DNA from: an uncultured Gemmatimonadota bacterium
Lineage (GTDB): Bacteria > Gemmatimonadota > Gemmatimonadetes > Gemmatimonadales > Gemmatimonadaceae
DNA length: 64,000 bases
NCBI GenBank assembly: GCA_902826615.1
Contig: CADEFN010000002.1
Location: forward strand, 62,001-126,000
Direction: 5' to 3'
Shown: piece after piece, positions 2,538-18,018 of the stretch
Position numbering within the stretch: the first letter of the stretch is position 1
How the letters are laid out: every line of letters begins with the position of its first letter
Made by a program: the position numbers and the translations under genes
Notes under the pieces: model-generated
Told to the model about the DNA's origin: nothing
The model's input: the letters and a program-made list of their open reading frames with translations, nothing else
The model's database searches: none

Positions 2538-3979
2538 TTGTCGAACCAGACACGCGCGTCAAGCTGCGGCACAGGCTTCGGCGTGTTGGGGTTGGAGTTG
2601 ATCTCTTCGCTCCGGTAGGTCAGTCGGCGAACCACGTTACCCACGAGGGCACCTTGTGGCGGCGTCAGGACGGGATACTCCTGCCCTGCCGGGCCGCTGC
2701 GCTTCCACTGCACCCAGGCTTCCAGCGGGCGCATGAAAAGATCCAGCCACTGCTGCCGGTTCATTTCACGACGCCAGTTGGTGGCGTTGAGGGTCGGGAG
2801 GGCATTCACATAGGTGTCGATCGATGCCGTCGGAACGCCTAACGCTCCCATCGATTCGCGGACACCGGTGCGATAGCGCGCATCGGCGATCCCGATGCCA
2901 CCGGGCCAGAACCCACGCGCGATCGCCTCGGCTTCGAGCAGCAGCTGCTCGGAGTACGAGAAGGACACTTCCGGGAGGTTGGCCTTGAGCAGGTTCAGGT
3001 GCACCAGCGAAGAACGCGGTGTGCGGGGCTCTACTCCAACGAGGGAGAGAAACTCGTTGGCTGAGGCGCCCGGTCCCGGCTGATAGAAAATCGGGAGCCG
3101 CGGATCGTTGAGCGGTACCATCTCGTCGAACATGACCTTTGACGCGTACCAGTCCTGCTGCACGCCACCGCGGAAGATCTGCGTGAACGAGAAACGCGGG
3201 TTCTGGCGGCCGGGCGAATCGAAGTAGGGGAACTTCATCTCATCGCCGCGCGACGCGATCATCGTCTGCGTGGCCATGGCGCCGATGGCAGCCGACTTGG
3301 AGGCATCCGCATCCACCATCGTCATCAGGATGCGGAACTTGAGCGAGTTGGCAAAGCGGCGCCATTTCGCCATATCGCCGCCGTAGTACAGGTCGTTTGG
3401 CGCCGTGATCCGCGCCGACGTGGCGTCGATGAGGGCGATGGCGTCGTCCAGCATCTTGATCGTGCCGTTCAGCACATCCTGCTGCGTGTCAAACTTCGGA
3501 AAGTCCACGTCGCCGGTGGCCGCCTCGCTGAACGGGATGTCGCCCCAGAGATACGTGGTCTGCGAGTAGACAAACGCTTCGTAGATCTTGAGCTGAGCGA
3601 TCGTATTGTTCGGCTTGGGCGTGCGCGATTCGGCCTCACGGCGTGCGAGCACCAGGTTCTTGAGCACGTCGGTGTAAATGGAGCCCCACGCGCTACGCAC
3701 ACGCGTCTGGTCGTACTGCGCCTGCTGCAGTCCCCAGGCGGCGCCCGAGGCCCACTGCTGATTCATAAGCGACACGGGCCAGGTGAGTTCCGCGACACGG
3801 AGCAGGGAGAACTTCACCTCCGCGCCGGCAAAGAGCAGTGCCGGTTCGGCGGTGGTCGATCGGTTGGGATCGACATTCAATGCCCCATCCTCGAAGCAGC
3901 CAACGGTGGCCAGTCCCACGAGGGCCGTTACGCCGAGTCGCCGAGCCTGCTGGATCATGGTGTGATTGCGATTGGTCAT
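2534..3979 (-). CDS. SusD/RagB-family outer-membrane lipoprotein (first pair)
   Basis: 481 residues. The N-terminus ends in ATVGC, a lipobox with Cys about 28, so the mature protein is a lipoprotein. The helical TPR-like body with ALLFAGAEVKFSLLR, the YSQTTYLWGDIPFSEA segment and the C-terminal NWRREMNRQQWLDLF match the SusD-like branch that pairs with RagA/SusC. SusD proteins cap the SusC barrel and bind the imported glycan or peptide. A GAGG Shine-Dalgarno lies 8 nt before the ATG. SusC ends only 24 bp upstream and the cyclophilin overlaps downstream. A CGTTAGGC octamer lies at 2837-2844. The substrate cannot be told from sequence. Confidence 0.93.
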   Translation of the reverse strand: MTNRNHTMIQQARRLGVTALVGLATVGCFEDGALNVDPNRSTTAEPALLFAGAEVKFSLLRVAELTWPVSLMNQQWASGAAWGLQQAQYDQTRVRSAWGSIYTDVLKNLVLARREAESRTPKPNNTIAQLKIYEAFVYSQTTYLWGDIPFSEAATGDVDFPKFDTQQDVLNGTIKMLDDAIALIDATSARITAPNDLYYGGDMAKWRRFANSLKFRILMTMVDADASKSAAIGAMATQTMIASRGDEMKFPYFDSPGRQNPRFSFTQIFRGGVQQDWYASKVMFDEMVPLNDPRLPIFYQPGPGASANEFLSLVGVEPRTPRSSLVHLNLLKANLPEVSFSYSEQLLLEAEAIARGFWPGGIGIADARYRTGVRESMGALGVPTASIDTYVNALPTLNATNWRREMNRQQWLDLFMRPLEAWVQWKRSGPAGQEYPVLTPPQGALVGNVVRRLTYRSEEINSNPNTPKPVPQLDARVWFDK

Positions 3980-4003
3980 GGAGAAATCCTCAGGGAAGGA
4001 CGA

Positions 4004-7000
4004 CTAGTAGGTCAAACGGAGATTGAAGCCGAACGAGCGGGTCGACGGAAGGTTGTTGCGTTCGATCCCTTCGCCGATGAGCGATGCACCGTGCACGTTG
4101 GACTCGGGATCGATGTGCGGCACCTTGCTCGAAATCAGCCACAGGTTGCGCCCTTCGAGCGAGAACACCGCGTCGCTGCTGCGCAGGGCATTCGCCCAGG
4201 AGTTCGGCAGCTTGTAGCTGAACTGGAGTTCGCGGAGCTTGGTGTACGACCCGTCAAAAATGTTGTTCTCCGGGCTCACCGAGCTGTCGAGGTTGCCCCA
4301 GTACTGCTGGACACTCGCTACCGGCACATCGTTAGGTCTGGTGGATCCATCGGCATTGCGGATCACACCCTTCTGGACAAAGGGCGTCCGGTCAGCCGTC
4401 TCGGCACCCGTGCCTGACGAGCGGAGGGCCGACACGGTGTTGGACATCAGCACACCACCCTTGCGAATGTCGACCAGGAAGGAGAGCGACGCATTACGGT
4501 ACCGGAAGGTGTTGTTGATCCCACCGATCCAATCTGGATAAATGTTGCCGAAGAGACGCCGGTTCCCTGGAATACGAAGTCCATTGGCCGGGTTGATGAG
4601 GTACTGGCCCGTGGCGGAGTCACGCTGGAACCCGACACCCTGAATCTGGAACGTGGTGCCCTTGCGCGCCGCGATGAAGGTACCGAATCCGTCGCCAGCC
4701 GTGACGATGAACTCGGAAAGCCCGTCGGCGAGGCTGTCGACCGTGTTGCGGTTGCGGCTCCAGTTGGCGCCAATGTCCCACTGGAAACCGTTGCGGGCGG
4801 CCTGCAGCACGGCGTAGTTGATCTGCGCTTCGATGCCACTGTTGGAAATCTGGCCCACGTTGAGGCGGCGCGCACGGAATCCACTCGTCTCCGGAGTCGA
4901 GATCGACACGATCTGGTCGTAGTTCTTCACGTCGTAGTACGTGAGATCCACACCCATACGGTCCTTGAGCATGCGGAACTCACCACCCACTTCCCATGAG
5001 TTCTGCCGCTGCGGTTTGAGGTTCTTGGGAGGAATGACGTTTGTAGCGCCAAAGGCCGACGCCCCATTGAACGGGAAGCTCTGGTTGAATGTGTAGATGT
5101 CGCTCTGCTGCGTGAGTGGCGAATACGTGAAGGCGAGCTGATAGGGCTCCTCGTCCGAACCCACGTTCGCCCAGTTGGCGCGCAGCTTCGCGAAGCTCAC
5201 CGTGCCGTTCTTGAAGACCGAGGCCTCCTTGAACGCGTCCGACAGCACAAAGCCGGTGGAAATGGAAGGATAGAAGTAGCGGTTGTTGTCGACCGGAAGC
5301 GTGGAGGACCAGTCATTGCGTCCGGTGACGTTCACGAAGAGATAGTCCTTCCAGGAGAAGCCGAGATCGCCGTACGCGCCATAGATCTGCCGTTCGGAGA
5401 AGAAGTTCGTGGCCTCGTTAGTTTGGGCATTGGCCTGCGTGTAGAGCCCGTCGACGTTGAGGCCCTGACTGAACACGCGCTGCCGCTTGAACGTACGCTT
5501 GTTGAAGTTGTGGCCGAGCACACCCTTGAAACCCAGGCTCGGCGTAACCTGCCGGGTGACCGTGGCGATGAAGTCCGTGTTCAGTTCGCGTTCGTTGAAA
5601 TCCTGCGTGTCGAACTGACCATCGAGTCGCCCGCGCGTTCCCTTGCGGGTCACAAAGCGGCGATTCTCGACCGCGATGTCGGTTCCCCCGCGGAACGAGA
5701 GGTTGAGCCAGCTGTTCACGTCGTACGAGGCGAGGGCATTGCCGAACAGGCGGTCGATGGAGTTGTTGAGACCGTTGTTGTCCGTCACCCAGTACATGTT
5801 GTTGCTGGTGCCGGTGCCGTCAATCGAGCCGGCGCGCCCGTCGGCACGCTGCCGGTCGGACCGCAGGAACTCCGTAGACAACGTGCGCGGCGTGAACGTC
5901 CACAGCGACATCGGAATGCTCTGACCATTCTGGCCCTGCGACGCGCGACCCGATGAGTTGGACCGGACATAGTTGGCCGCCAGACGGAGGCTGAATTTCT
6001 CGGTGTAGCGCTGCCCGGCGTTCAGCGCCAGGGTATACCGTTGCAGTTCGGAGTTTGGCACGATACCGCTCTGGCCGAGCCATGTCCCGCCGAGGCGGTA
6101 GTCACTGGTCGGCGTGCCACCATCCCACGACATCGCATGGACGTTGGTGACACCCGTGTTCCAGAAGTCCGAGAAGTTGTTGGGATCCGCGCGCAACACC
6201 TCGGGCACGCCAAGGATGTTCGGCTCGGTCTGCCCCGTGATCTTCGGCCCCCACCCATTGGCGTTGGCGTTGTTGTAGACGCCGAGGTTGCCCTGAGCGT
6301 ATTCGTTCTGGAAGTCGGGCTCGCGGAAGATGTTGTCAGTGCGGAAGGAGCCGTTGTACGTAAAGCGCTTCTGGCCGGCACGACCACGTTTGGTCGTCAC
6401 CACGATCACGCCGTTGCGCGCACGCGAACCGTACAGCGCCGATGCGGCGGCGCCCTTGAGCACGGACATCGACTCGATGTCGTCCGGGTTGAGGTCCTGC
6501 GCCCGGTTGCCAACGTCCACACCACCGGTGACGATCTCGGTTTCCGAGCCGGCGAAGGAGGAGTTGGAAATCGGCACACCGTCCACCACAAAGAGGGGCT
6601 CGCTGGCCGACGCAATCGAGTTCACGCCGCGGATGACGACCTTGCTGCCGCCACCGACGGTGCCCGACTGCTGCGTGATGCGCACACCGGCAATCTTGCC
6701 AGCCACCTGGTTGAGCACGTTGGAGCTTCGTGCCACGGTGAGCTGTGCCGGTTCGATCTGCGCCACCGAATACCCGAGCTCCTTGGTCTCGCGCACGATC
6801 GCGTTAGCCGTTACCACGACACTGGAGAGCTGAGTGGTTGCGGTCTCCAGCGCAACATCGACGGTGTTCCGCCCCTGCACCGACACATCGGTCGGCTTGT
6901 ACCCGATCAGGCGAAACGTGAGCATGTCCACGCTCCGGCTGGCTGGCAGGGTCACGCGGTAGGAACCAGCCGAGTCGGTCATGGCTCCGGTGTTGGTCCC

Positions 7001-7168
7001 GCGTACCACGATAGTGACACCCTGGAGTGGGCGTCCACCATCAACGGCAGTCACTCGGCCCGTGACCGTTCTTGCCTGGGCTTGAACCAACAGGACGGGC
7101 ACGAGGCTCAGCGCGAAGACTGCGCCAAGGACCCGTGCCGCCCTCCCGCTACGACCAGATTCTCGCAT
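4004..7168 (-). CDS. SusC/RagA-family TonB-dependent receptor (first pair)
   Basis: 1,054 residues. A signal peptide ends around VQAQA (residue 32). A carboxypeptidase-regulatory-like beta-sandwich follows (VTGRVTAVDGGRPLQGVTI), then the plug with VVIRGVNSIASASEPLFVVDGVP and the SusC signature around MSVLKGAAASALYGSRA. The rest is a 22-strand beta-barrel ending in the aromatic-terminated FGFNLRLTY expected for BAM-assembled proteins. It imports large ligands in a TonB-dependent way together with its SusD partner. No convincing promoter or regulator binding site is visible in the 213 bp upstream. An octamer variant (CGTTAGGT) is at 4330-4337. Confidence 0.95.
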   Translation of the reverse strand: MRESGRSGRAARVLGAVFALSLVPVLLVQAQARTVTGRVTAVDGGRPLQGVTIVVRGTNTGAMTDSAGSYRVTLPASRSVDMLTFRLIGYKPTDVSVQGRNTVDVALETATTQLSSVVVTANAIVRETKELGYSVAQIEPAQLTVARSSNVLNQVAGKIAGVRITQQSGTVGGGSKVVIRGVNSIASASEPLFVVDGVPISNSSFAGSETEIVTGGVDVGNRAQDLNPDDIESMSVLKGAAASALYGSRARNGVIVVTTKRGRAGQKRFTYNGSFRTDNIFREPDFQNEYAQGNLGVYNNANANGWGPKITGQTEPNILGVPEVLRADPNNFSDFWNTGVTNVHAMSWDGGTPTSDYRLGGTWLGQSGIVPNSELQRYTLALNAGQRYTEKFSLRLAANYVRSNSSGRASQGQNGQSIPMSLWTFTPRTLSTEFLRSDRQRADGRAGSIDGTGTSNNMYWVTDNNGLNNSIDRLFGNALASYDVNSWLNLSFRGGTDIAVENRRFVTRKGTRGRLDGQFDTQDFNERELNTDFIATVTRQVTPSLGFKGVLGHNFNKRTFKRQRVFSQGLNVDGLYTQANAQTNEATNFFSERQIYGAYGDLGFSWKDYLFVNVTGRNDWSSTLPVDNNRYFYPSISTGFVLSDAFKEASVFKNGTVSFAKLRANWANVGSDEEPYQLAFTYSPLTQQSDIYTFNQSFPFNGASAFGATNVIPPKNLKPQRQNSWEVGGEFRMLKDRMGVDLTYYDVKNYDQIVSISTPETSGFRARRLNVGQISNSGIEAQINYAVLQAARNGFQWDIGANWSRNRNTVDSLADGLSEFIVTAGDGFGTFIAARKGTTFQIQGVGFQRDSATGQYLINPANGLRIPGNRRLFGNIYPDWIGGINNTFRYRNASLSFLVDIRKGGVLMSNTVSALRSSGTGAETADRTPFVQKGVIRNADGSTRPNDVPVASVQQYWGNLDSSVSPENNIFDGSYTKLRELQFSYKLPNSWANALRSSDAVFSLEGRNLWLISSKVPHIDPESNVHGASLIGEGIERNNLPSTRSFGFNLRLTY

Positions 7169-7381
7169 AGGTACACCAAGGGGTGGGGGTAGGTCTGCGA
7201 GGGCCGGGCAGCAGGCGGCCGCGGGGCTCCTCGCGTGTGATCTAAAGTGTATGGATGTGCGGGGGCGCGAAAGGCTCCCGTAAGGTTCTGGATGGCAGAC
7301 GACATTCGTCAGCCGCGGGGGGCTCGGGCCGGGCGGGTCGCCGAGGGGCGAGGCGGCCCGGTCGGGCGTTCCTCGACGGCC

Positions 7382-8551
7382 TCACGGGAGTCGGTAGCGT
7401 TGCAGATACTCCAGGTCGTCATCATCGACGCGCACCAGATACACACTTCCCTGCCCGAATCCCGCGAGCCGGGTACGGACCGGGAGCCGCATGCGCGCGG
7501 TCACACGTCCTCGGCCGTCGACCAGATCGAAGGATGGAGTGGAGTCGTTATGCGGTCGGCTGCGCGGCACCCACAGTGTGCCGCTGGGATCCACCAGAGC
7601 GGTGCCTCGTACCGGTGGCAGGTGCGAGGGCCACGGGAGGGAGTTCGCCTCTTCGTCGAGCGCACCCTCTGGCATCCGAGTGATCCGCGGCGTCGGTGCT
7701 GACTTCGTCGCGCCGCTCGGGTGTTGAACCACAAAGATCTTCCCGGGCCGTGTCTGCGACTGCACGAACGCCCGCCGTTCGGCGTCGGTCACCGGAATAC
7801 GCTCGTGCTCGATGGGAGCCCCAACCACGGCCGTGCCGGTCACCGGGTGCCACTCCACGCGATACTCCGGCACGCGCACCACGGCCACTCGACCATCGGG
7901 GGCGACGGCGGCAATGTCTTCGGGCGCGAGCGGGCGGTTGTTGATGTCGCGTATCATCCCGCCGGGAAGCGAGCGCGCGCCCATCTGCCGACCTTTTGGC
8001 ACACGCAAGGTTGTTACCGTGTCGATTTTCCACGTGCGACGATCCACCCGCACGATCACAGTCTCGCCCGTGGCGCCATCCGACGGCCGCTCGGCGTTGT
8101 ACCCCTCCCGCTGTGCATACAACCGGCCGGCAGCATCCACCCCGAAGTACTCGGCCGTCCACACCATCTGTGGTGCGTCTCGGAAGGCGAGGGTGCCAAC
8201 CGGTGCGGCCGCAGGGTCGAGCACGAGCCATCGCGCGTTCATGACATCCCACACCCAGGTGCTGTCGCCGGGCAGGGCAGTCAGGGCCGCCGGGACCCGG
8301 AACTCCCTGGGGCCAGCGCCCTGGCGGGCAACCGTCGTCTTTGCGCCGCGCGCCAGGTCGACCAGGAACAGCTGCGCATCACGTGCATCGGCCACCACCA
8401 CGCGTCGGTCGCGCAGTTCGCGGATGTAGGTGATCCGCGTGAAGGGGTCCGGGTGTTCGTGCTCGGCGCGCTCAAGCATGCGTGTGGACACCTGCGCATC
8501 TGCGGCGCTTCCCACCACCAGCGTTGCAAACAGGGCGGTCCTGTAACTCAC
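7382..8551 (-). CDS. Secreted 6-bladed beta-propeller-like protein, function unknown
   Basis: 389 residues from a GTG at 8551. This start is preferred over a GTG 27 bp upstream because a perfect AGGAGG lies 6 nt before it (8558-8563). A signal peptide ends at SAADAQ. Repeated blade-like segments such as VVVADARDAQLFLVDLA and WVWDVMNARWLVLD fit the NHL/TolB-like six-bladed propeller proteins often found beside SusCD loci in Gemmatimonadota and Bacteroidota. No catalytic residues can be assigned. It is leftward like the SusCD genes but separated from them by 213 bp, so it may have its own transcript. Confidence 0.72.
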   Translation of the reverse strand: MSYRTALFATLVVGSAADAQVSTRMLERAEHEHPDPFTRITYIRELRDRRVVVADARDAQLFLVDLARGAKTTVARQGAGPREFRVPAALTALPGDSTWVWDVMNARWLVLDPAAAPVGTLAFRDAPQMVWTAEYFGVDAAGRLYAQREGYNAERPSDGATGETVIVRVDRRTWKIDTVTTLRVPKGRQMGARSLPGGMIRDINNRPLAPEDIAAVAPDGRVAVVRVPEYRVEWHPVTGTAVVGAPIEHERIPVTDAERRAFVQSQTRPGKIFVVQHPSGATKSAPTPRITRMPEGALDEEANSLPWPSHLPPVRGTALVDPSGTLWVPRSRPHNDSTPSFDLVDGRGRVTARMRLPVRTRLAGFGQGSVYLVRVDDDDLEYLQRYRLP

Positions 8552-8754
8552 CTTTTCCCTCCTGCGCGTCCCTCCCACACGGTCAGGGAGTCAGCGCACC
8601 GCAGTCACGCGCTCGAAGTTGCTGGAACTCTCTACTTCAAAAGTGTCCGCTCCGGTCTGGGGTGTAAACACCAGTGATCGGTCAGGAACGCCCCACCTGA
8701 GACCCCCTCATCGCGATCGCTATCCTGTGCGTCACTGGACCTTTTCAACTCGCT

Positions 8755-8879
8755 CCCGAGGTTCCCTCGGGGGCTGGGGTGGACCCCGCTTGGATTCTTG
8801 GAGGGTGCCCCATCAGCAGTGGCCTCCTATTGGCTGTCGCAGAGCTCGCTTGCCAGCGAGCCCGGCCGTTCTGCCGGCA
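8755..8879 (+). promoter_or_regulatory. Structured upstream region with two clear hairpins
   Basis: The 615 bp between the propeller gene and the PKD lipoprotein hold no supported gene. Within them are two dyads: CCCGAGG / CCTCGGG with a 3-nt loop at 8755-8771, and GCTCGCT / AGCGAGC with a 4-nt loop at 8844-8861. A weaker CCGGC / GCCGG dyad follows. They could form a structured 5' leader for the gene starting at 9167, or be remnants of something else. Neither hairpin has a following T-tract, so they are not ordinary terminators. A GCCTAACG octamer is at 9073-9080. Confidence 0.35.
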
Positions 8880-9166
8880 TGCCCGTTTGCAGGAGCCTCC
8901 GGCTAAGCCTGACCGCGCGTCGGCCGAGCTACTGCAATGGTTCGTTGCAGGCATCGATCCCAGGCGAAACACAACGACTCAGGCAGCCCCTCACATGAGA
9001 TCCTCCGAATCCTCACTCAAGAGCGGGTCGCGTTGCGTTAGTCTTCCCAGCGTCGAGCGGCCGAGCTCAGGCGCCTAACGAGTCGGACACCCCCGGTGGC
9101 ACGAGGTGTGAATGTCACTCCTCGCAGGTCCCGGGACGCGGGCCCGACCCCATGGAGAAACAACTC

Positions 9167-11179
9167 ATGTCCAGATCCGCTGCTGCCGCAGTCCTCGCAC
9201 TGTCTCTGATGGCCGCTGCCTGCCGAGAGGCGACCGATCCCATCTTGAGTCGACGGGCAGTCGCGGCCTCGGCCGGTCTGCTCCCCGGCGCTTCGCAGGT
9301 CGCGAGTGTGTACGTCGCCGATTTCGTAGGGACCGCTGCGACCGGGTTCGACCTCAACGATGCCGGTGACGTCGTCGGCCGTTCATACGCCGACCCCGGC
9401 TGTGGCCCGTTTTGCCTGCCGCCAGAGGAGAACGTTGTCTGGCGTGCCGGAAACCGGATCGTGCTGCCACTGGTGCCTGGTTACACCAGCGGCAGCCAGT
9501 ACCCACTCCACATCAACAATCAGGGGCTTATCGGCGGCGTGGTGGGACTCATTGGCAGCAGCACCCGTGTAGCAACGTGGACTCCAAACGGGCTGGCATA
9601 CACCGCCCAGGATCGCGGGACCTTCCCCGGGACATCGAGCGCCGAGCTGGCTGGGCTCGACGACCAGGGGCGGATGGTCGGGTGGGCCACCCAGGGTGGC
9701 GCCATACCCACACTTACGGTGCCCTTCATGTGGTCCCAGGCAACGGGCATGATCGACCTGAAAACCCAGGGATACCCTAACGAGCGGCCGGCGGCGATGA
9801 GTCCGGGGGGCAAGGTGGTCACCTGGTACCATCGGTATCAGCTGGGCAACCCCGCGAGCGTGGTCACGTTGCCCGCCCCACCATTGGGGTTCACGGGGCT
9901 GGCGTCCAATGGCAGCGCGATCAACGACAACGGTGATATGGCCCATCTGCTCATCACGATCGGGAGCCAGAATCTGCGTTATCCGTTCCGCCTGACGAGT
10001 GGCGGCACCTGGCAACAGTTATCGAGCGCAGGAACTGGCAACCTGTCGCGTGCCGGGATTGGTGCAATCAACTCCGCACAGGATGTCGCCTTCACCGTGC
10101 AAAGCACCGCGATGATTGCCGCCGGACCGACCGGACTCGGCCAGGCCCTCGCGTCCCTTGTCTCCCCCGCCTACGGCTCCGCCGCGCTCACCGGCGTCGG
10201 GACCATGAACAACTCGGGGCAGATGCTTGCGTCGATCATGCTCGGCCGCAGTGCGCGGTTGGTAAAGCTGACGCCCGCCGTCCCGTGCGGTGTGAATTGC
10301 CTGGTGTCCAGCACCCTGGTGATGACCGGCCAGTTTGTGCAGGATCCCGCAGCCCCCGGGAGCTGCTTCCAGGGCGGGAAGATGTACAACTACAGCACCG
10401 CGACCGTCACCATGACGAGCGAAACCGGGGCACCCCTCGCCAACGCACAGGTGAGTGGCCGGTTCATGGATGACTACTGGACCAACAAGGTGGTCAGTGG
10501 CACCACAAACGCCGCCGGGGTCGTGACCTTTGCACACACCGGGTTATGCGGCGTGGGCGCCATCGCCTTCCTCATCGATGGAGCCACTCTCGGGACCCGG
10601 ACCTTCGACAAAACCAGAGGGAAGGTCGCTGATTTCGTGATTCCCAGTGTGGCGCCCCCGGGCAATCAGCCACCCGTCGCCCGCTTTTCGCGCAGCTGCA
10701 GCAGCACGACGCGGACCTGCACCTTCAACGGCGCGAATTCCACGGACGACGTCGGCGTCGTCTCATACAATTGGACCTTTGGTGATGGCACAACCGGAAC
10801 CGGCGCCACCGTGTCACACACGTATGCCCGGGCCGGCACCTATCAGGTGACGCTCACCGTCACCGATGGCGGCGGGTTGACCAACAGCCTGACCAAGTCG
10901 GTTACGCTCACCGGGGGTAATCAACCGCCCGTCGCCGCCTGGACGATCAGTTGCCTTCCGGCACCGGCGCACACCTGCACGGCAAACGGGAGTGGATCGA
11001 GCGACCCCGACGGGAGCATTGTCAGCTACAGCTGGACAAACGGTGTGGGCCAGGTGGTGTCGACACTCCCCACCTTCACCAAGAGCTGGCAGAGCGCCAG
11101 AACGTTGACGTGGACGCTGACGGTCACGGATAACGGTGGGCTCACCAGCCAGCTCACCAAGACGTTCAACGTGCCCTGA
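9167..11179 (+). CDS. Cell-surface lipoprotein with HAF-like repeats and two PKD domains
   Basis: 670 residues. The start at 9167 is chosen because GGAG lies 9 nt upstream; an in-frame ATG at 9152 would put that site inside the gene. The N-terminus ends in LMAAAC, a lipobox. Residues about 40-370 contain repeats of the form (L)NDAGDVVG, INNQGLIGG, LDDQGRMVGW and INDNGDM, typical of HAF/DUF3466-like extracellular repeat proteins. An Ig-like segment with several Cys follows. The C-terminus has two PKD domains, each opening with NQPPVA; the first contains WTFGDG. PKD domains usually bind surfaces or carbohydrates. The gene has two TTA codons outside the CGTTAGGC context, which is unusual here. 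Confidence 0.8.
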   Translation: MSRSAAAAVLALSLMAAACREATDPILSRRAVAASAGLLPGASQVASVYVADFVGTAATGFDLNDAGDVVGRSYADPGCGPFCLPPEENVVWRAGNRIVLPLVPGYTSGSQYPLHINNQGLIGGVVGLIGSSTRVATWTPNGLAYTAQDRGTFPGTSSAELAGLDDQGRMVGWATQGGAIPTLTVPFMWSQATGMIDLKTQGYPNERPAAMSPGGKVVTWYHRYQLGNPASVVTLPAPPLGFTGLASNGSAINDNGDMAHLLITIGSQNLRYPFRLTSGGTWQQLSSAGTGNLSRAGIGAINSAQDVAFTVQSTAMIAAGPTGLGQALASLVSPAYGSAALTGVGTMNNSGQMLASIMLGRSARLVKLTPAVPCGVNCLVSSTLVMTGQFVQDPAAPGSCFQGGKMYNYSTATVTMTSETGAPLANAQVSGRFMDDYWTNKVVSGTTNAAGVVTFAHTGLCGVGAIAFLIDGATLGTRTFDKTRGKVADFVIPSVAPPGNQPPVARFSRSCSSTTRTCTFNGANSTDDVGVVSYNWTFGDGTTGTGATVSHTYARAGTYQVTLTVTDGGGLTNSLTKSVTLTGGNQPPVAAWTISCLPAPAHTCTANGSGSSDPDGSIVSYSWTNGVGQVVSTLPTFTKSWQSARTLTWTLTVTDNGGLTSQLTKTFNVP

Positions 11180-11202
11180 TCCCGGTTAGCGATGCGAAGA
11201 CG

Positions 11203-11230
11203 GGCTGCCGACCATCGGCAGCCTGTTTTC
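11203..11230 (+). terminator. Rho-independent terminator after PKD lipoprotein
   Basis: A perfect 9-bp stem (GGCTGCCGA / TCGGCAGCC) with a 3-nt loop at 11203-11223 is followed by TGTTTTC. It lies 24 bp after the stop codon, the standard place for an intrinsic terminator. Confidence 0.85.
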
Positions 11231-11318
11231 ATTGTGGCAACGCTTTAGTCCGTACTACCCCTCGCCTCGGGCCCAACAGCCCTGAGGCAGTAGCCAGGCG
11301 ACCACCCTCGCTTTCCTC

Positions 11319-11332
11319 CGCAATCGTTTGCG
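11319..11332. promoter_or_regulatory. Putative LacI-family operator upstream of malQ
   Basis: CGCAATCGTTTGCG is an inverted repeat (CGCAA-TCGT-TTGCG) with a central CG, the form of LacI-family operators. The 14-mer starting one base later (11320-11333) matches 13 of 14 bases of the reverse complement of 37989-38002 in the lacI promoter. It lies about 170 bp before malQ. The rest of 11231-11503 holds no gene I can support; a start for malQ transcription probably lies between this site and 11504. Confidence 0.6.
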
Positions 11333-11503
11333 CCCGGTCTCCGGACTCAAGTTCAAGATTCACAACCACTTCCGGGCCAACCTCGTTCTGGCTCCGCGCG
11401 CATTGGCCGCACATCTTTGGCGGCCCCGCGTCTCGACCGGACATCGGTTATCTATGCGCGGGCGCGACCGCTCCAGCTCCCAATTCATCCCTGTCACAAC
11501 ACG

Positions 11504-12967
11504 ATGGTCTTTCCTCGTTCGTCGGGAATTCTGCTCCATCCCACCTCCCTCCCCGGGAACAACGGTATCGGCGAACTCGGCAGCCAATCGCTCAAGTTCC
11601 TCGACTTCCTCGCTGAAAGCGGGCTGAAGATCTGGCAGGTCCTTCCGCTGGGTCCGACGGGGTACGGCGATTCGCCCTATCAGTGTTTCTCCGCGTTCGC
11701 CGGCAACCCACTGCTCATCGAAGTCCCGGCACAACTGGCGAGTTTTCCTGCCCACACCGTCGACTTCGGTCGGGTGATCGAGCACAAACGCGCGCTGGTC
11801 AGCAAGGCGGTGACGGCCTTCAAGCCGACCGACGCGTATCTGTCATTTCTTGATCGCAACTCGGATTGGCTGGTGGACTACGCGCTCTTCATGGCGCTCA
11901 AGCAAGCGCACGGCGGCATCGCCTGGCCGTACTGGGAGGCCGGTGCCGCGCGTCGCGATCCCGACGCCCTCGCACGCTGGCGCCAGCGCCTCGCCGACGC
12001 CATCGATGCCATCAAGATCGAGCAGTATCTCTTCTTTGCGCAGTTTGACACGCTGCAGAAGGCGGCGACAGAGCGTGGCATCAAACTCATGGGGGATCTC
12101 CCCATTTACGTCGCGCACGATTCCGCCGACGTCTGGGCCAACCCCGAGCTCTTCCGTCTGAACGACAACGGGACACTCAAGGTGCAAGCCGGTGTGCCCC
12201 CGGACTACTTCTCCGCAACAGGACAGCTCTGGGGCAACCCCATCTACGACTGGGATGCCATGAAGGCAAGCGGGTACGCCTGGTGGATCCGGCGGATGCG
12301 CGCCGCCCTTCATCAGTTTGACCTCGTACGCATCGATCACTTCCGCGGCTTCGAGGCCTACTGGGAAGTGGCGGGCGACGCCGCGACCGCCGTGGATGGC
12401 AGATGGGTGAAGGGTCCTGGTGTCGAGCTCTTCCGCGCCATCGAGGGCGCACTCGGCACCCTCCCGATTGTCGCGGAAAATCTGGGCCTCATCACGCCCG
12501 AGGTGGAGCAGCTGCGCGAGGCGTGCGGATTCCCCGGCATGAGCATTCTGCAGTTTGCCTTTGGCGGCGACGGCCAGGCCAAGGAATTCCAGCCGCACAC
12601 CTACCCGAAGGACCGCGTGGTGTACACGGGCACGCATGACAACGACACTACCGTGGGATGGTGGAACTCCGGCGCCGGCGACTCCACACGCGATGCCTCG
12701 GATGTGGAGAAGGAAAAGGCTTTTGCCCGGCGCTATCTCGGTGCGGATGGGAGTGAGATGCACTGGACACTGATCCGCACTGCGTTGGCATCGGTGGCCA
12801 ATACCGTGCTGATCCCGATGCAGGACGTTCTGGGTCTCGGGAACGAAGCACGCATGAACCTCCCTGGTCGTCAGGCGGGCAACTGGGGATGGCGCTTTTC
12901 GTGGGACCAGGTGACGCCGGACATTCGAGCTCGGCTGAAGGAGATGGTGCAAACGTACGATCGGTAG
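11504..12967 (+). CDS. malQ: 4-alpha-glucanotransferase (amylomaltase, GH77)
   Basis: 487 residues from the ATG at 11504; the frame is open further upstream, but homology begins at SSGILLHPTSLPG. Family motifs run in order: GPTGYGDSPYQCFSAFAGNP, the acid/base and nucleophile region with DLVRIDHFRGFEAYW, then IVAENLG (catalytic Glu) and THDNDT (third carboxylate). The enzyme moves 4-alpha-glucan segments between maltodextrins, releasing glucose in maltose catabolism, in the cytoplasm. It is the first gene of a rightward series with the transporter, the amylase and the AhpD-like gene. A LacI-type operator lies upstream. There is no obvious Shine-Dalgarno. Confidence 0.93.
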   Translation: MVFPRSSGILLHPTSLPGNNGIGELGSQSLKFLDFLAESGLKIWQVLPLGPTGYGDSPYQCFSAFAGNPLLIEVPAQLASFPAHTVDFGRVIEHKRALVSKAVTAFKPTDAYLSFLDRNSDWLVDYALFMALKQAHGGIAWPYWEAGAARRDPDALARWRQRLADAIDAIKIEQYLFFAQFDTLQKAATERGIKLMGDLPIYVAHDSADVWANPELFRLNDNGTLKVQAGVPPDYFSATGQLWGNPIYDWDAMKASGYAWWIRRMRAALHQFDLVRIDHFRGFEAYWEVAGDAATAVDGRWVKGPGVELFRAIEGALGTLPIVAENLGLITPEVEQLREACGFPGMSILQFAFGGDGQAKEFQPHTYPKDRVVYTGTHDNDTTVGWWNSGAGDSTRDASDVEKEKAFARRYLGADGSEMHWTLIRTALASVANTVLIPMQDVLGLGNEARMNLPGRQAGNWGWRFSWDQVTPDIRARLKEMVQTYDR

Positions 12968-13008: not shown

Positions 13009-14355
13009 ATGACCAGCATGCCGCAGAACCGGGTCGCCGCACCAGCCCACGTCGCCCATCGTACTTCGTTTGGCACCATCTGGAACATGTCGTTCGGGTT
13101 CCTGGGCATTCAGTTCGGATGGGCGCTGCAGATGGCGAACATGAGCGCCATCTATGAATACCTCGGCGCCAGCCCCGACGAGATTCCCATGTTGTGGCTG
13201 GCCGCACCCCTGACCGGGTTGCTGGTGCAACCGATCATCGGGCATCTGAGCGACAACACCTGGTCGCCAACGTTAGGCAGGCGTCGCCCCTTCTTTCTCA
13301 TCGGCGCCCTGCTCAGCTCGTGTGCGCTCATCTTCATGCCGCAATCGAGCACGCTCTGGATGGCGGCAGGACTGCTCTGGATCCTCGACGCCTCCATCAA
13401 CGTCTCGATGGAGCCCTTCCGCGCCTTTGTCTCCGACCTGCTGCCTCAATCGGAACGGACACGCGGCTTTGCCATGCAGAGCTTCTTCATCGGGCTCGGG
13501 GCCGTCATCGCCAGCGCCATGCCGTGGATGCTCACCAACTGGTTCGGTGTGGCGGACAGCACGCCTGGCACGATCCCCATGACGGTGCGGCTCTCGTTCT
13601 ACATCGGCTCTGCGGCATTCCTCGGGGCGGTGCTGTACACCATTCTCACCACGAAGGAGCATCCCCCGGCCGACCTTGCCGAGTTCCAACGCAAGAAGGC
13701 GGAGAGCCGAGGGGCGATGGCGATGGTGCGCGAGATCCGGGAGGCGGTGGCCCACATGCCGGAGACCATGCGTCGCCTGGCCCCTGTGCAGATCTGCACC
13801 TGGCTGGGTCTCTTCTGCATGTGGCTCTATTTCCCCGTCGCGGTCGCGCGAAACGTCTTCGGCGCACCGGACACCAGTTCACCGCTGTATCAGCAAGGTG
13901 TGGCATGGGCGGGGGTCTGCTTCGGGGCCTACTCCCTCGTGTGTTTTGTCTTTGCGTTCTGCCTCCCGCCGCTGGCCCGCAAGTTCGACCGCAAGGGCAC
14001 GCACATGATCTGTCTGCTCGCCGGGGCTGCGGGACTCATCTCGGTCGCCTTCATCAAGAATCCCAATCTGCTGCTGCTCTCCATGACCGGTGTTGGCATC
14101 GCGTGGGCCAGCACCCTCTCCATGCCCTACTCCATGCTGGCCGGGTCGCTGCCCGAGGGGAAAACCGGGATCTACATGGGGATCTTCAACTTCTTCATCG
14201 TGATTCCCGAGATTGTCGCATCGTTAGGCTTCGGCTGGGTGATGAACAACCTGCTGGACAACAACCGGATGGCGGCCGTGGTGGCAGGTGGCGTGTTCAT
14301 GATCATTGCTGCCCTGCTGGTGCTGCGGGTGAATGACAAGGGAGAGACCGCGTGA
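13009..14355 (+). CDS. SLC45-like MFS sugar transporter
   Basis: 448 residues with about 12 hydrophobic segments. The start is supported by GAGAGGAAG just upstream. The N-terminal half carries [36 protein letters not shown] and [11 protein letters not shown], the pattern of the SLC45 / plant sucrose carrier-related MFS branch that sits beside maltose-utilisation genes in Bacteroidota. It lies between malQ and a secreted alpha-amylase-family enzyme and overlaps the latter by GTGA, so maltose or maltodextrin uptake across the inner membrane is the likely job. Two CGTTAGGC octamers (13271 and 14222) each encode a Leu-Gly pair with TTA. Confidence 0.87.
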
Positions 14356-16190
14356 GGCATTGTTCGAGATCCCTGCTGATGCTGGTGGCGTGGCTGCCGG
14401 GAATCGCGCTGGCTCAGGCGCCGGCCGTGACGAAAGTGGAGCCCCCCAATTGGTGGGCCGGGAGCACGGTGAATCCCGTGAGAGTCATGCTCCGCGGGCA
14501 GAACCTCACCGGGGCACGTCTGGACTGCGGACGGCTGCGCTGCAGCAATGTGAAGGTGAACAGCAGCGGCACCTACCTGTTTGCCGACGTGGCGATCGGC
14601 AACAACACACGTCCCGGTTCGTATCCGCTCACCGTGCGGTCTGCCGCCGGTTCGGCCAGCGCCCCCTTTGCCATTGCACCACGGCTCGGGTCGGCTGGGC
14701 GTTTCCAGGGTTTCGGGCCTAACGATGTGTTCTACCTCCTCATGCCTGATCGCTTTGCGAACGGCGACACGGCGAATGACAACCCGGCGGTCTCGCCCGG
14801 CCTGCACGACCGCAGCAAGGGACGTTATTACCACGGGGGCGACCTGGCTGGGGTCAGACAGAAGCTCCCGTACCTCAAGAGCCTCGGGATCACCACTATC
14901 TGGATGAACCCGATCTATGACAACAACAACGCTCTGAACCGCAAGGAAACGTACGACAACCAGCCGATCACCGACTATCACGGCTACGGGGCCACGGACT
15001 TCTACGCCGTCGATGAACATCTCGGTGACATGGCGAGTGTGCGCGCACTGGTGGACGAGGCACACACCATGGGCATCAAGATCGTGCTCGACATGGTGGC
15101 CAACCACTCGGGACCGTATCACCCGTGGGTGCAGGACGCGCCGACACCCACCTGGTACCACGGCACCGAAGCGAAGCATCTCGACGAAACCTGGCAGACG
15201 TGGACCCTGGCCGATCCATACTCTACCGACGCGATGCGCCGCGCCACGCTGGACGGCTGGTTCATCAACATTCTGCCTGACCTCAATCAGGACGATCCCG
15301 AGGTCGCGCGCTACATCATCCAGAACACCCTCTGGTGGGTGGGGATGACCGGCATCGACGGCATCCGCCAGGATACGTGGCCGTATGTGCCGCGGTCGTT
15401 CTGGAAACCGTGGATGGCGGCGATCAAGCGCGAGTACCCGCGGGTGGACGTGGTGGGCGAGGTCTTTGATGGCGATCCCGCGATGATTGCCTTCTTCGAA
15501 GGGGGCCGCACCAAGCATGATGGCCTCGACGACAAGGTCGACGCACTCTTCGACTTTCCGCTCTACTACGCCATCCGCAGTGCCTTTGCCTCGGGGCGCT
15601 CCATCAAGGATGTTGCGCAGATGTTGTCGCGCGATCATCTCTACAAAACCCCGTCATCCCTCGTGACGTTTCTGGGCCTCCACGATGTGTCGAGGTTCAT
15701 GAACGAGCAGGGTGCCACCGTGCAAGGCCTCAAGCTGGCGTACACCTTCATGCTCACGGCACGCGGCACACCGCTCATCTACTACGGTGACGAGGTGGCT
15801 CTCCCTGGCGGAAACGACCCGGATAATCGCCGCGACTTTCCGGGCGGATGGGCAGGTGACGCGGCCAGCGCTTTTGAAGCGACTGGCCGTACCGCAGTAC
15901 AGCAGGAGGTCTGGTCGCACGTACAGCGTCTGCTTGCCATTCGCGCGCAACGCGCAGACCTGCGCACCGCCCCCATGGAACACCTCGTCGCGAATGATGC
16001 GGTCTTTGCCTACCGCCGCGGCAAGACAGTGGTGGCGCTCAACAACGCCAAAGGTGAAATGAAGGTGACGGTGGCAGTGGGCCGGCTCGGCGACGACTTG
16101 CTCAGCGTCTGTCCGGCGGCCCGGCCCGGAGACGGCGGCACAACCATCACCATCCCGCCACGGGCGGGGTGTGTGTTTCCAGTGCAATGA
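14352..16190 (+). CDS. Secreted alpha-amylase family enzyme (GH13, neopullulanase/cyclomaltodextrinase-like)
   Basis: 612 residues from a GTG that overlaps the MFS stop (GTGA). A signal peptide ends at ALAQA. Residues about 25-110 form an Ig-like N-terminal domain (cyclomaltodextrinase N type: VEPPNWWAG). The GH13 barrel starts at DVFYLLMPDRFANGD. The catalytic residues are visible: nucleophile Asp341 in GIRQDT, acid/base Glu370 in VGEVFDGDP and Asp445 in GLHDVSRF. A small C-terminal beta domain follows. It should hydrolyse cyclic or linear maltodextrins in the periplasm, feeding the adjacent transporter and MalQ. The exact specificity (neopullulanase or cyclomaltodextrinase) is not determined by sequence. 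Confidence 0.92.
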   Translation: MRHCSRSLLMLVAWLPGIALAQAPAVTKVEPPNWWAGSTVNPVRVMLRGQNLTGARLDCGRLRCSNVKVNSSGTYLFADVAIGNNTRPGSYPLTVRSAAGSASAPFAIAPRLGSAGRFQGFGPNDVFYLLMPDRFANGDTANDNPAVSPGLHDRSKGRYYHGGDLAGVRQKLPYLKSLGITTIWMNPIYDNNNALNRKETYDNQPITDYHGYGATDFYAVDEHLGDMASVRALVDEAHTMGIKIVLDMVANHSGPYHPWVQDAPTPTWYHGTEAKHLDETWQTWTLADPYSTDAMRRATLDGWFINILPDLNQDDPEVARYIIQNTLWWVGMTGIDGIRQDTWPYVPRSFWKPWMAAIKREYPRVDVVGEVFDGDPAMIAFFEGGRTKHDGLDDKVDALFDFPLYYAIRSAFASGRSIKDVAQMLSRDHLYKTPSSLVTFLGLHDVSRFMNEQGATVQGLKLAYTFMLTARGTPLIYYGDEVALPGGNDPDNRRDFPGGWAGDAASAFEATGRTAVQQEVWSHVQRLLAIRAQRADLRTAPMEHLVANDAVFAYRRGKTVVALNNAKGEMKVTVAVGRLGDDLLSVCPAARPGDGGTTITIPPRAGCVFPVQ

Positions 16191-16239
16191 GCGTCGTCCC
16201 CCGAGCGCAAGGAAACCTCCGCCAAGGAAGGAGATAGTC

Positions 16240-16830
16240 ATGCATCGCATGTTTCTCAAAGAGGTTGAAGACGCGAGCGGTTCGGGTGCCTACGCCCGCA
16301 GGATCGATGGCATGCGCACCGCTGGTGCGACCATACCGCAGATCATGCACCTCTTCGCCTTCAAACCCGACCGCACCGATCACCTGGCGAAGTTCACCCA
16401 CGCCGTAATGCGCGGGCCGTCGCCGCTGTCGCCGGGACAACGCGAGCTGATTGCCGCATTTACCTCTCGCCGCAACGACTGCCCGTTTTGAATCGGCTCA
16501 CACGCCGCGGTCGCGGCGGAGTTGTTAGGCAGCAGGGCCCTCGTCGACGCCGTCCTCGCCGACTACACCACGGCCCCGATCACGCCCGCCGAGAAGGCGC
16601 TGTTTGCCTTTGTCGACAAGGTCAACCGTTCGTCCAACCAGATGGGGCCTGCCGACATCGACGAGGCAAAGGCCGCGGGGTGGAGCGAGGAGGCACTCTA
16701 CGACGCCATGACGGTGTGTGCCCTCTTCAACTTCTACAACCGCTGGATCGATGCCTCCGGCGTGAGTGACATGACACCCGCGGACTATGAGCAGTCCGGC
16801 AAACGCATGGCGACTGGCGGATACGGCTGA
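16240..16830 (+). CDS. AhpD-like peroxidase-related protein, probable selenoprotein (in-frame TGA at 16489-16491)
   Basis: Read through one TGA, the frame is 196 residues. The start has AAGGAAGGAG about 7 nt upstream. The active-site segment is CPF(TGA)IGSH: Cys81, TGA at 84, His88, with Glu69 exactly 12 residues before Cys81. This is the Glu-x11-Cys-x2-Cys-x3-His layout of AhpD/carboxymuconolactone-decarboxylase peroxidases, where the second Cys attacks the peroxide. Only that residue is replaced by TGA, the frame and homology continue without a shift, and no other stop interrupts. A hairpin with a GGTC loop starts 11 nt after the TGA. CxxU selenoproteins of the AhpD-like group are known. 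The alternative is a simple TGC-to-TGA nonsense mutation or sequencing error giving a pseudogene. No selenocysteine machinery is in the window. It sits 49 bp after the amylase gene. Confidence 0.7.
16503..16518 (+). promoter_or_regulatory. Candidate bacterial SECIS hairpin
   Basis: CGCCGC and GCGGCG form a perfect 6-bp stem around the loop GGTC. Eleven nucleotides separate it from the TGA at 16489-16491, the same spacing as in E. coli fdhF, whose apical loop also contains GGUC. By general bacterial SECIS rules (at least one G in the first two loop bases, short upper stem, 16-37 nt from UGA to loop) it qualifies, with 17 nt to the loop. The Ala-Val-Ala-rich coding could produce such a stem by chance in GC-rich DNA. 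Confidence 0.5.
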
Positions 16831-16857: not shown

Positions 16858-18018
16858 CTATCGCGTGGTGCCCGGGTGAAACTCCCGCCAGCTGTGCCAG
16901 AACTCCTGGCTCGCCTTGAGCCGGCGGAGCCCGCCTAACGCGCGCCCACTCACGGGCCACACCTGGCCACCAGCCATGAGAGAATCACCCTGCACCGTGA
17001 ACACCAGGTCGGGACTGGGTCGCTCGTAGGCGTAGAACGAGGCGTTGTCGGGCGCCAGCGCTATGACCACCGGCAGCCCACCGACGTCATCGTTGATCAC
17101 CCGCGCCTGCCGCAGGACATTCCAGTCGAAGGCCTTGCTCTGTTCATTGTATTCGATGCCGATGACCCACGACTTCTCACCCCACGACGTGGTATCGGTG
17201 CCCGTGAGTGTCTTGCGGCTCGATCCGTTTTCAAATGCATAGTCCTTGGCGTACTCGCCAGCAAAAGCAGGATCCGCCTGCATAACGAGCGAACGGGGAT
17301 GCAGCGCCAGCCACTCGGTTAGTGTCACTTGCAGCGAGGGGATTTCCTGCAGCGTGGCACCCTTCCGTTCACCGGTAACCGCTTCCCCATTCGCCTGACG
17401 CCACCAGCTTCCCGTCGTTTCGTCCTCGAACATGGCATTGAAGTGATCCATTCCAACAAGCCGGAAGCGTTCGGGCCTGCGGTCCACGATCGGGGAGTAC
17501 ACACGACCGGTGCGGCACACGGTGCAGTAACTCACCATCACCGGGACCCCACCAACCGAGTCGCGCACCTGGTGGTGGTAGCCGATGTACTGCAGTGGGT
17601 AGGCACGCGCCTCGCCATTCACTTCCACGCCCACGACGAGCCGGTCACCGGCCACACGATTTCGAGCAGTCGGCAGCATTGAAAGCGTGCGGGGTTGCTT
17701 GAATGTCTGGTCGGCCGCCATCCGGAAGTTGGCCGCATAAGCAACCACGGCGACTGCGGCCACCGCGACGACCCCGACCCAGCGGCGTCTGCCACCCGGT
17801 CGCCACCAGCTCGCCGCCCCGGCCAGAGCAAGCGCGCCTAACGCCAGACGCACGGGCCACCGCCAGGTATGGATCGCGTAGGCAAGGTCGAGACTGCGCA
17901 TTCGCTGGCTGCCCGGCATGGGCATGATGAAATACACGTTCACCGCCTCGTACACGATGAGCCCGGCGATGCCGATCCAGAACAGTCCTTTCGTGCGTGC
18001 ATCGCGGGAACTCGTCAC
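16858..18018 (-). CDS. DUF3179 domain membrane protein
   Basis: 386 residues. Three hydrophobic segments lie within about residues 12-95, then a soluble domain with ARAYPLQYIGYHHQVRD, the Cys pair motif YCTVCRTGRVY and FNWNVL-like and GIEYNEQSKAFDW segments that define DUF3179. The function of the family is unknown; the conserved CxxC suggests a metal or redox role. The gene begins within the trehalase stop (ATGA overlap), so it is the last gene of the leftward transporter-trehalase-DUF3179 operon and runs convergent with the AhpD-like gene, 27 bp away. Two octamers (16933, 17836) supply TTA codons. Confidence 0.88.
   Translation of the reverse strand: MTSSRDARTKGLFWIGIAGLIVYEAVNVYFIMPMPGSQRMRSLDLAYAIHTWRWPVRLALGALALAGAASWWRPGGRRRWVGVVAVAAVAVVAYAANFRMAADQTFKQPRTLSMLPTARNRVAGDRLVVGVEVNGEARAYPLQYIGYHHQVRDSVGGVPVMVSYCTVCRTGRVYSPIVDRRPERFRLVGMDHFNAMFEDETTGSWWRQANGEAVTGERKGATLQEIPSLQVTLTEWLALHPRSLVMQADPAFAGEYAKDYAFENGSSRKTLTGTDTTSWGEKSWVIGIEYNEQSKAFDWNVLRQARVINDDVGGLPVVIALAPDNASFYAYERPSPDLVFTVQGDSLMAGGQVWPVSGRALGGLRRLKASQEFWHSWREFHPGTTR

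Follow-up and report, generated by a model that had tools for sequence, protein, structure and literature searches.

A probable AhpD-like selenoprotein with a CxxU active site and a conserved SECIS-like hairpin in Gemmatimonadota and related loci of other phyla

The window, a 64,000-nucleotide stretch of DNA from an uncultured Gemmatimonadota bacterium, contains an open frame that starts with ATG at 16240, ends with a TGA stop at 16828–16830 and is interrupted by a sole in-frame TGA at codon 84. The features of the locus, together with the two neighboring genes, are as follows.

14352–16190, + strand: cyclomaltodextrinase-type alpha-amylase (PF00128, PF09087), the upstream neighbor, separated by a 49-nt gap
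16224–16233, + strand: Shine-Dalgarno-like AAGGAAGGAG, read in the sequence, 6 nt before the ATG
16240–16830, + strand: putative AhpD-like selenoprotein coding sequence (TIGR01926/PF02627), 196 aa, Sec at residue 84
16444–16446, + strand: codon for Glu69, the proposed proton-relay glutamate, invariant in the alignment and in all full matches
16480–16503, + strand: redox motif CxxU-x3-H (codons C81, P82, F83, U84, I85, G86, S87, and H88)
16489–16491, + strand: in-frame TGA, read as selenocysteine (108 of 110 homologous loci have TGA here and two have TGC)
16503–16518, + strand: bacterial SECIS-like hairpin (stem CGCCGC/GCGGCG, loop GGTC) after an 11-nt spacer from the TGA
16858–18018, − strand: DUF3179 protein, the convergent downstream neighbor, whose homologue is likewise found at this position in six further loci

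TGA-84 falls at the second-Cys position of the AhpD motif (E69-x11-C81-PF-U84-IGS-H88), as the first-pass annotation of this DNA had proposed when it described a single TGA in place of that Cys with Glu69 twelve residues before Cys81. The spacings between E69, C81, U84, and H88 (12/3/4) are identical to those of Mycobacterium tuberculosis AhpD, where the relay residues are Glu118, Cys130, Cys133, and His137 (PMC3141380), and C81, F83, residue 84 (U or C), and H88 are invariant across an alignment of 24 sequences. Translation bears out the claim that the frame runs on unbroken for 112 sense codons beyond the TGA, a Shine-Dalgarno-like sequence is present where one had been noted, and gene prediction with translation table 11 gives fragments, just as had been anticipated.

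Further upstream on the same strand lie genes for a GH77 4-alpha-glucanotransferase and an MFS transporter, and a trehalase gene follows the DUF3179 gene downstream. The upstream amylase and the selenoprotein gene are possibly co-transcribed. The earlier placement of the gene inside a maltodextrin operon is right for the window, with GH77, MFS, and amylase genes upstream, but does not extend to the family; a cyclomaltodextrinase homologue lies upstream in just three other loci (L101, L106, and L027), where a glyoxalase-fold gene separates the two in every case. The link to sugar metabolism genes may be no more than co-transcription. Neighborhood clustering gave no family-wide partner gene, and the recurring neighbors (MFS transporter, outer-membrane beta barrel, histidine kinase, DUF3179, and Gfo/Idh/MocA oxidoreductase) are lineage-specific. 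A common 445-aa downstream neighbor in Acidobacteriota, considered as a candidate selA, proved to be an MFS transporter.

When Cys is substituted for Sec in the query, the protein scores 45.6 bits against PF02627 (CMD; cut-off 23) and 102.4 bits against TIGR01926 (peroxidase-related enzyme; cut-off 81.8), which places it in the latter family; both matches form a continuous stretch across the TGA, and the window gene is the only TIGR01926 match in its genome. The score against NF041238 (AhpD_rel_CFYUT), 46.9 bits against a cut-off of 175, places it outside that family. In Cys-containing homologues, which the first-pass annotation had suggested aligning, the second Cys of CxxC aligns with the in-frame UGA, and the Glu-x11-Cys-x2-Cys/Sec-x3-His pattern of the AhpD hydroperoxidase relay is complete. 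An AlphaFold2 model built from the 24-sequence alignment has a mean pLDDT of 96.1 and places E69 in helix 65–78, C81 just ahead of helix 82–96, and U84 and H88 inside it. The best PDB matches to the model are the AhpD-core peroxidase-related proteins 2prr, 3c1l, 6k40, and 2oyo (TM 0.74–0.80), and in solved relatives the CxxC aligns with C81-P-F-U84. Sequence and predicted model together point, with near certainty, to an AhpD fold and active-site layout.

The loci compared comprise 80 from a one-genome-per-species collection together with those of the window's own family, and their sources include Gemmatimonadota, Acidobacteriota, and Myxococcota, along with two Planctomycetota and a single record labeled Cyanobacteria. 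At the position of residue 84, 108 of these 110 loci have TGA, and L075 and L127 have TGC; identity of the window protein to TGA-containing orthologues is mostly 52–72%. L075 (6001–6582), which encodes a Cys form (CKFC), falls within the Sec clade with 97% support in a quick tree; four of the six pairs of its hairpin remain, and selA is still found in its genome. The simplest reading of the tree is that L075 is a probable Sec-to-Cys reversion. The position of L126 beside the window gene in that tree was discarded as a long-branch effect.

The region downstream of the TGA carries the signature of purifying selection. Between the window gene and L099, dN and dS are 0.25 and 1.22 after the hairpin and 0.20 and 1.19 before the TGA, and close pairs within Myxococcota and Acidobacteriota likewise give dN well under dS; values for distant pairs, calculated under a gap-free assumption, are rough. 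Among relatives the frame ends 113 to 150 codons past the TGA, mostly 114–124. A strain-specific TGA followed by decayed sequence, which the first-pass annotation had named as grounds for abandoning its reading, is thus not what is found.

More distant AhpD-like subfamilies with a TGA also occur in the same bacterial family at 25–41% identity (e.g. G013:C67:79671-80195 and G001:C13:163446-163895), and suggest a larger AhpD-like selenoproteome there.

Bacterial SECIS elements are stem-loops shortly after the UGA with a small apical loop containing G (PMC1088965), and the hairpin of the window gene has both this position and a G in its loop. The first-pass annotation had described a perfect hairpin with a GGTC loop 11 nt past the TGA, which is correct. 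Judged alone it is unremarkable, as a 6-bp hairpin arises there in ∼22% of synonymous recodings, and 37% of recodings fold equally well. No Rfam family is called within the window. Because the folding energy of the window alone is uninformative, conservation was used as evidence. All six stem pairs are intact in 99 of 104 distinct genes, as against a mean of 22% and a maximum of 37% in 500 runs of synonymous recoding with pooled codon usage. Double-sided changes occur at three of the six pairs: the outer C-G becomes T-A in six genes, a G-C becomes A-T in one, and another pair, C-G, becomes A-T, T-A, or G-C in one gene each. The loop is GGTC in 80 genes, AGTT in 16, AGGT in four, and GGGT and GGGC in two each, with G at position 1 or 2 in all loop types seen. 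Moreover, the Ala codons of the hairpin are near-fixed (GCC 96%, GCG 81%, GCG 96%, and GCG 90%), whereas for Ala72 and Ala73 the commonest codon is used about half the time, and mean pS, at 0.28 in the hairpin, is roughly half that of the surrounding sequence (0.62 downstream and 0.60 upstream). On this comparative basis the hairpin is a conserved SECIS-like element, which answers the suggestion that the region be searched for a bacterial SECIS.

The genome of the window (5.9 Mb, 98 contigs, 99% complete) contains all four components of the Sec machinery that the first-pass annotation had proposed looking for: selB (343 bits, cut-off 242), selA (524 bits, cut-off 268), one tRNA-Sec (66.3 bits; anticodon TCA by ARAGORN), and selD (380 bits; G000:C3:14732-15847, in L009 and L128). 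The first and third of these are the signatures of the Sec-decoding trait (PMC1273633). The selD gene, which adjoins tRNA-Sec, has an in-frame TGA of its own in a ...RCAG-U-AAK... motif, followed by a 5-bp hairpin that starts at the same distance as in the AhpD-like gene, and targeted family searches therefore give at least two selenoprotein genes in this genome. The formate dehydrogenase alpha homologues found there are without TGA, and thus this usual client does not maintain the Sec trait in this genome.

Among 179 genomes of the window's family, 29 have a close TGA orthologue, and selA is over the cut-off in 25 of these; the other four (G004, G080, G081 with a fragment only, and G156) are drafts, three of them in 590–820 contigs. 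When all matches are counted, selA is present in 45 of the 52 genomes that have a TGA-containing relative versus 5 of the 21 with stop-free relatives only (Fisher p 5e-7, in a test that ignores kinship); the weakest of the stop-free matches may represent different CMD proteins. Among the 28 source genomes of the other loci, selA exceeds the cut-off in 26, gives no match in one, and appears in one as split fragments that score below it.

Taken together, the locus very probably encodes one intact 196-residue AhpD-like peroxidase-related selenoprotein, in which hairpin-directed UGA decoding would supply Sec84 as the nucleophile. The parts of this reading differ in strength: comparative evidence makes Sec insertion at UGA-84 nearly certain, and peroxidase chemistry, argued by analogy with AhpD, is somewhat favored. 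Of the earlier description as a selenoprotein peroxidase, the selenoprotein part is upheld by comparison, and the term "peroxidase" derives from the fold and active-site motif. In the proposed mechanism, SelB with Sec-tRNA(Sec) would decode UGA-84 under the direction of the hairpin 11 nt downstream, and Sec84 would take the place of the second, nucleophilic Cys in the CxxC site of AhpD. The likeliest course is that the Sec84 selenol, kept deprotonated with the aid of His88 and Glu69, attacks a hydroperoxide (or an oxidant of the disulfide type); Cys81 would then resolve the resulting selenenic acid to a Cys81-Sec84 selenenylsulfide, to be reduced by a thiol donor.

It is quite possible, if short of probable, that the selenoprotein is instead a thiol-disulfide or other CMD-fold redox enzyme and not a hydroperoxidase. 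The CMD superfamily is functionally diverse, with the debrominase Bmp8 among the matches, the characterized AhpD-like PA0269 has weak peroxidase activity only (PMC3141380), and none of the ten annotated neighboring genes in the window (about 7.4–24.5 kb) is an ahpC or peroxiredoxin partner; set against this, the full E-C-U-H relay geometry of AhpD is conserved. It seems improbable that UGA-84 is a selenium-sensitive switch, with the 83-residue product or termination itself also having a role. In favor of a switch, recoding does compete with termination, and an efficiency of 30–40% has been reported for a Sec UGA in vivo (PMC4513850), but no conserved feature peculiar to the short product was seen, and that product would end just ahead of Sec84, without most of the helical fold. 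Reading of TGA-84 as Trp or Cys, through a code change or near-cognate readthrough, would equally yield a product that keeps the AhpD fold, but is very unlikely given that TGA also serves as the terminal stop in the window gene and many relatives, that the full Sec machinery is present, that the hairpin is conserved and compensating, and that the TGA-less relatives have Cys and not Trp. A pseudogene, in which an ordinary AhpD-like gene of the Cys type was interrupted by a nonsense mutation or by an error in sequencing, would account for the fragmented gene prediction but is scarcely credible when the same TGA recurs in independent assemblies from several phyla, always replacing the same Cys, in a frame with no other stop and with purifying selection downstream.

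Chance can be excluded because the TGA is kept and the hairpin is conserved and compensating across phyla. Because the Sec genes, the conserved TGA, the conserved hairpin, and the downstream purifying selection all coincide, the gene is best read as a UGA-decoded selenoprotein and not as a pseudogene.

Two relatives of this selenoprotein gene sit at the head of Sec gene cassettes. In plasmid 2 of Gemmatirosa kalamazoonensis, a megaplasmid (NZ_CP007130.1, L135) and the only close match added by plasmid records, a TGA-containing orthologue (6902–7489) is followed by selA and selB and then by convergent selD and tRNA-Sec. This cassette (6902–11991, about 455134–460223 of NZ_CP007130.1) is a complete Sec-decoding set, and its selD is a form without TGA. 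In the plasmid collection this record carries no annotation; it includes a second AhpD-like TGA copy ∼100 kb off (356440–357024). The other cassette, in genome G014 (L136), consists of two convergent blocks, one with an AhpD-like TGA gene (3396–3908), tRNA-Sec (3958–4053), and selD (4111–5046), and a facing one with selB, selA, and the orthologue (9150–8566), such that two AhpD-like TGA genes flank the Sec genes (3396–9150, about 730395–736149 of G014 C1). The arrangement is rare; when the loci of relatives were searched with the SelA of the window's genome, L123, the copy in G014, was the sole one with selA as a neighbor. That the Sec trait can move horizontally is already established (PMC1273633). 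Tentatively, an AhpD-like selenoenzyme could be a main reason to keep, and in places transfer, Sec decoding in these largely soil phyla, with the two loci as portable Sec cassettes that carry such an enzyme as cargo; the idea is more doubtful than not.

These data correct a gene that standard annotation would split or call a pseudogene, along with more than 100 orthologues in soil bacteria, and widen the range of a selenoprotein family, so far familiar chiefly from marine metagenomes, to a Gemmatimonadota, Acidobacteriota, and Myxococcota clade that nearly always retains Sec. Through the cassette loci, a connection between a single redox enzyme and the way Sec decoding is maintained or transferred becomes testable.

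The literature on AhpD-like CxxU selenoproteins goes back to 2005, with a further report in 2008, and the window gene adds a member to this known kind. The first-pass annotation was right about a selenocysteine AhpD-like protein with CxxU and overrated its novelty. What appears to be new is the clade of mainly soil bacteria in which Sec is almost always present, together with the two AhpD-headed Sec cassettes, neither of which was found described in the largely open-access literature searched. Among solved structures, 2prr, 3c1l, 6k40, 2oyo, and 2pfx share the fold over almost the whole chain (TM 0.74–0.80) at ∼24% identity and carry CxxC, differing from the window protein in being Cys forms. 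M. tuberculosis AhpD shares the Glu-x11-Cys-x2-Cys-x3-His relay, but has Cys where the window protein would have Sec and is a poor whole-fold match (TM 0.39–0.49). NF041238 ("CFYUT," Sargasso hypothetical protein 1) has the CMD/AhpD fold and CxxU in common with the window protein, but is a longer protein (357-position model) of which the window protein is not a member. A close counterpart is the Sargasso and Global Ocean Sampling (GOS) "AhpD-like 1" group (COG2128/TIGR01926), which has CxxU and a downstream SECIS with an apical-loop guanosine, as here; 27 AhpD-like CxxU selenoprotein sequences of COG2128 were reported from the Sargasso Sea (PMC1088965), 299 AhpD-like 1 and 70 AhpD-like 2 from Global Ocean Sampling (PMC2398784), and a 2026 review places the AhpD-like selenoprotein family under TIGR01926 (PMC13188914). 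The published AhpD-like 1 sets come mainly from marine metagenomes and include many Cys homologues (PMC1088965, PMC2398784), whereas the clade of the window gene belongs to Gemmatimonadota, Acidobacteriota, and Myxococcota, appears almost always to have Sec, and is linked in two cases to a complete set of Sec machinery genes.
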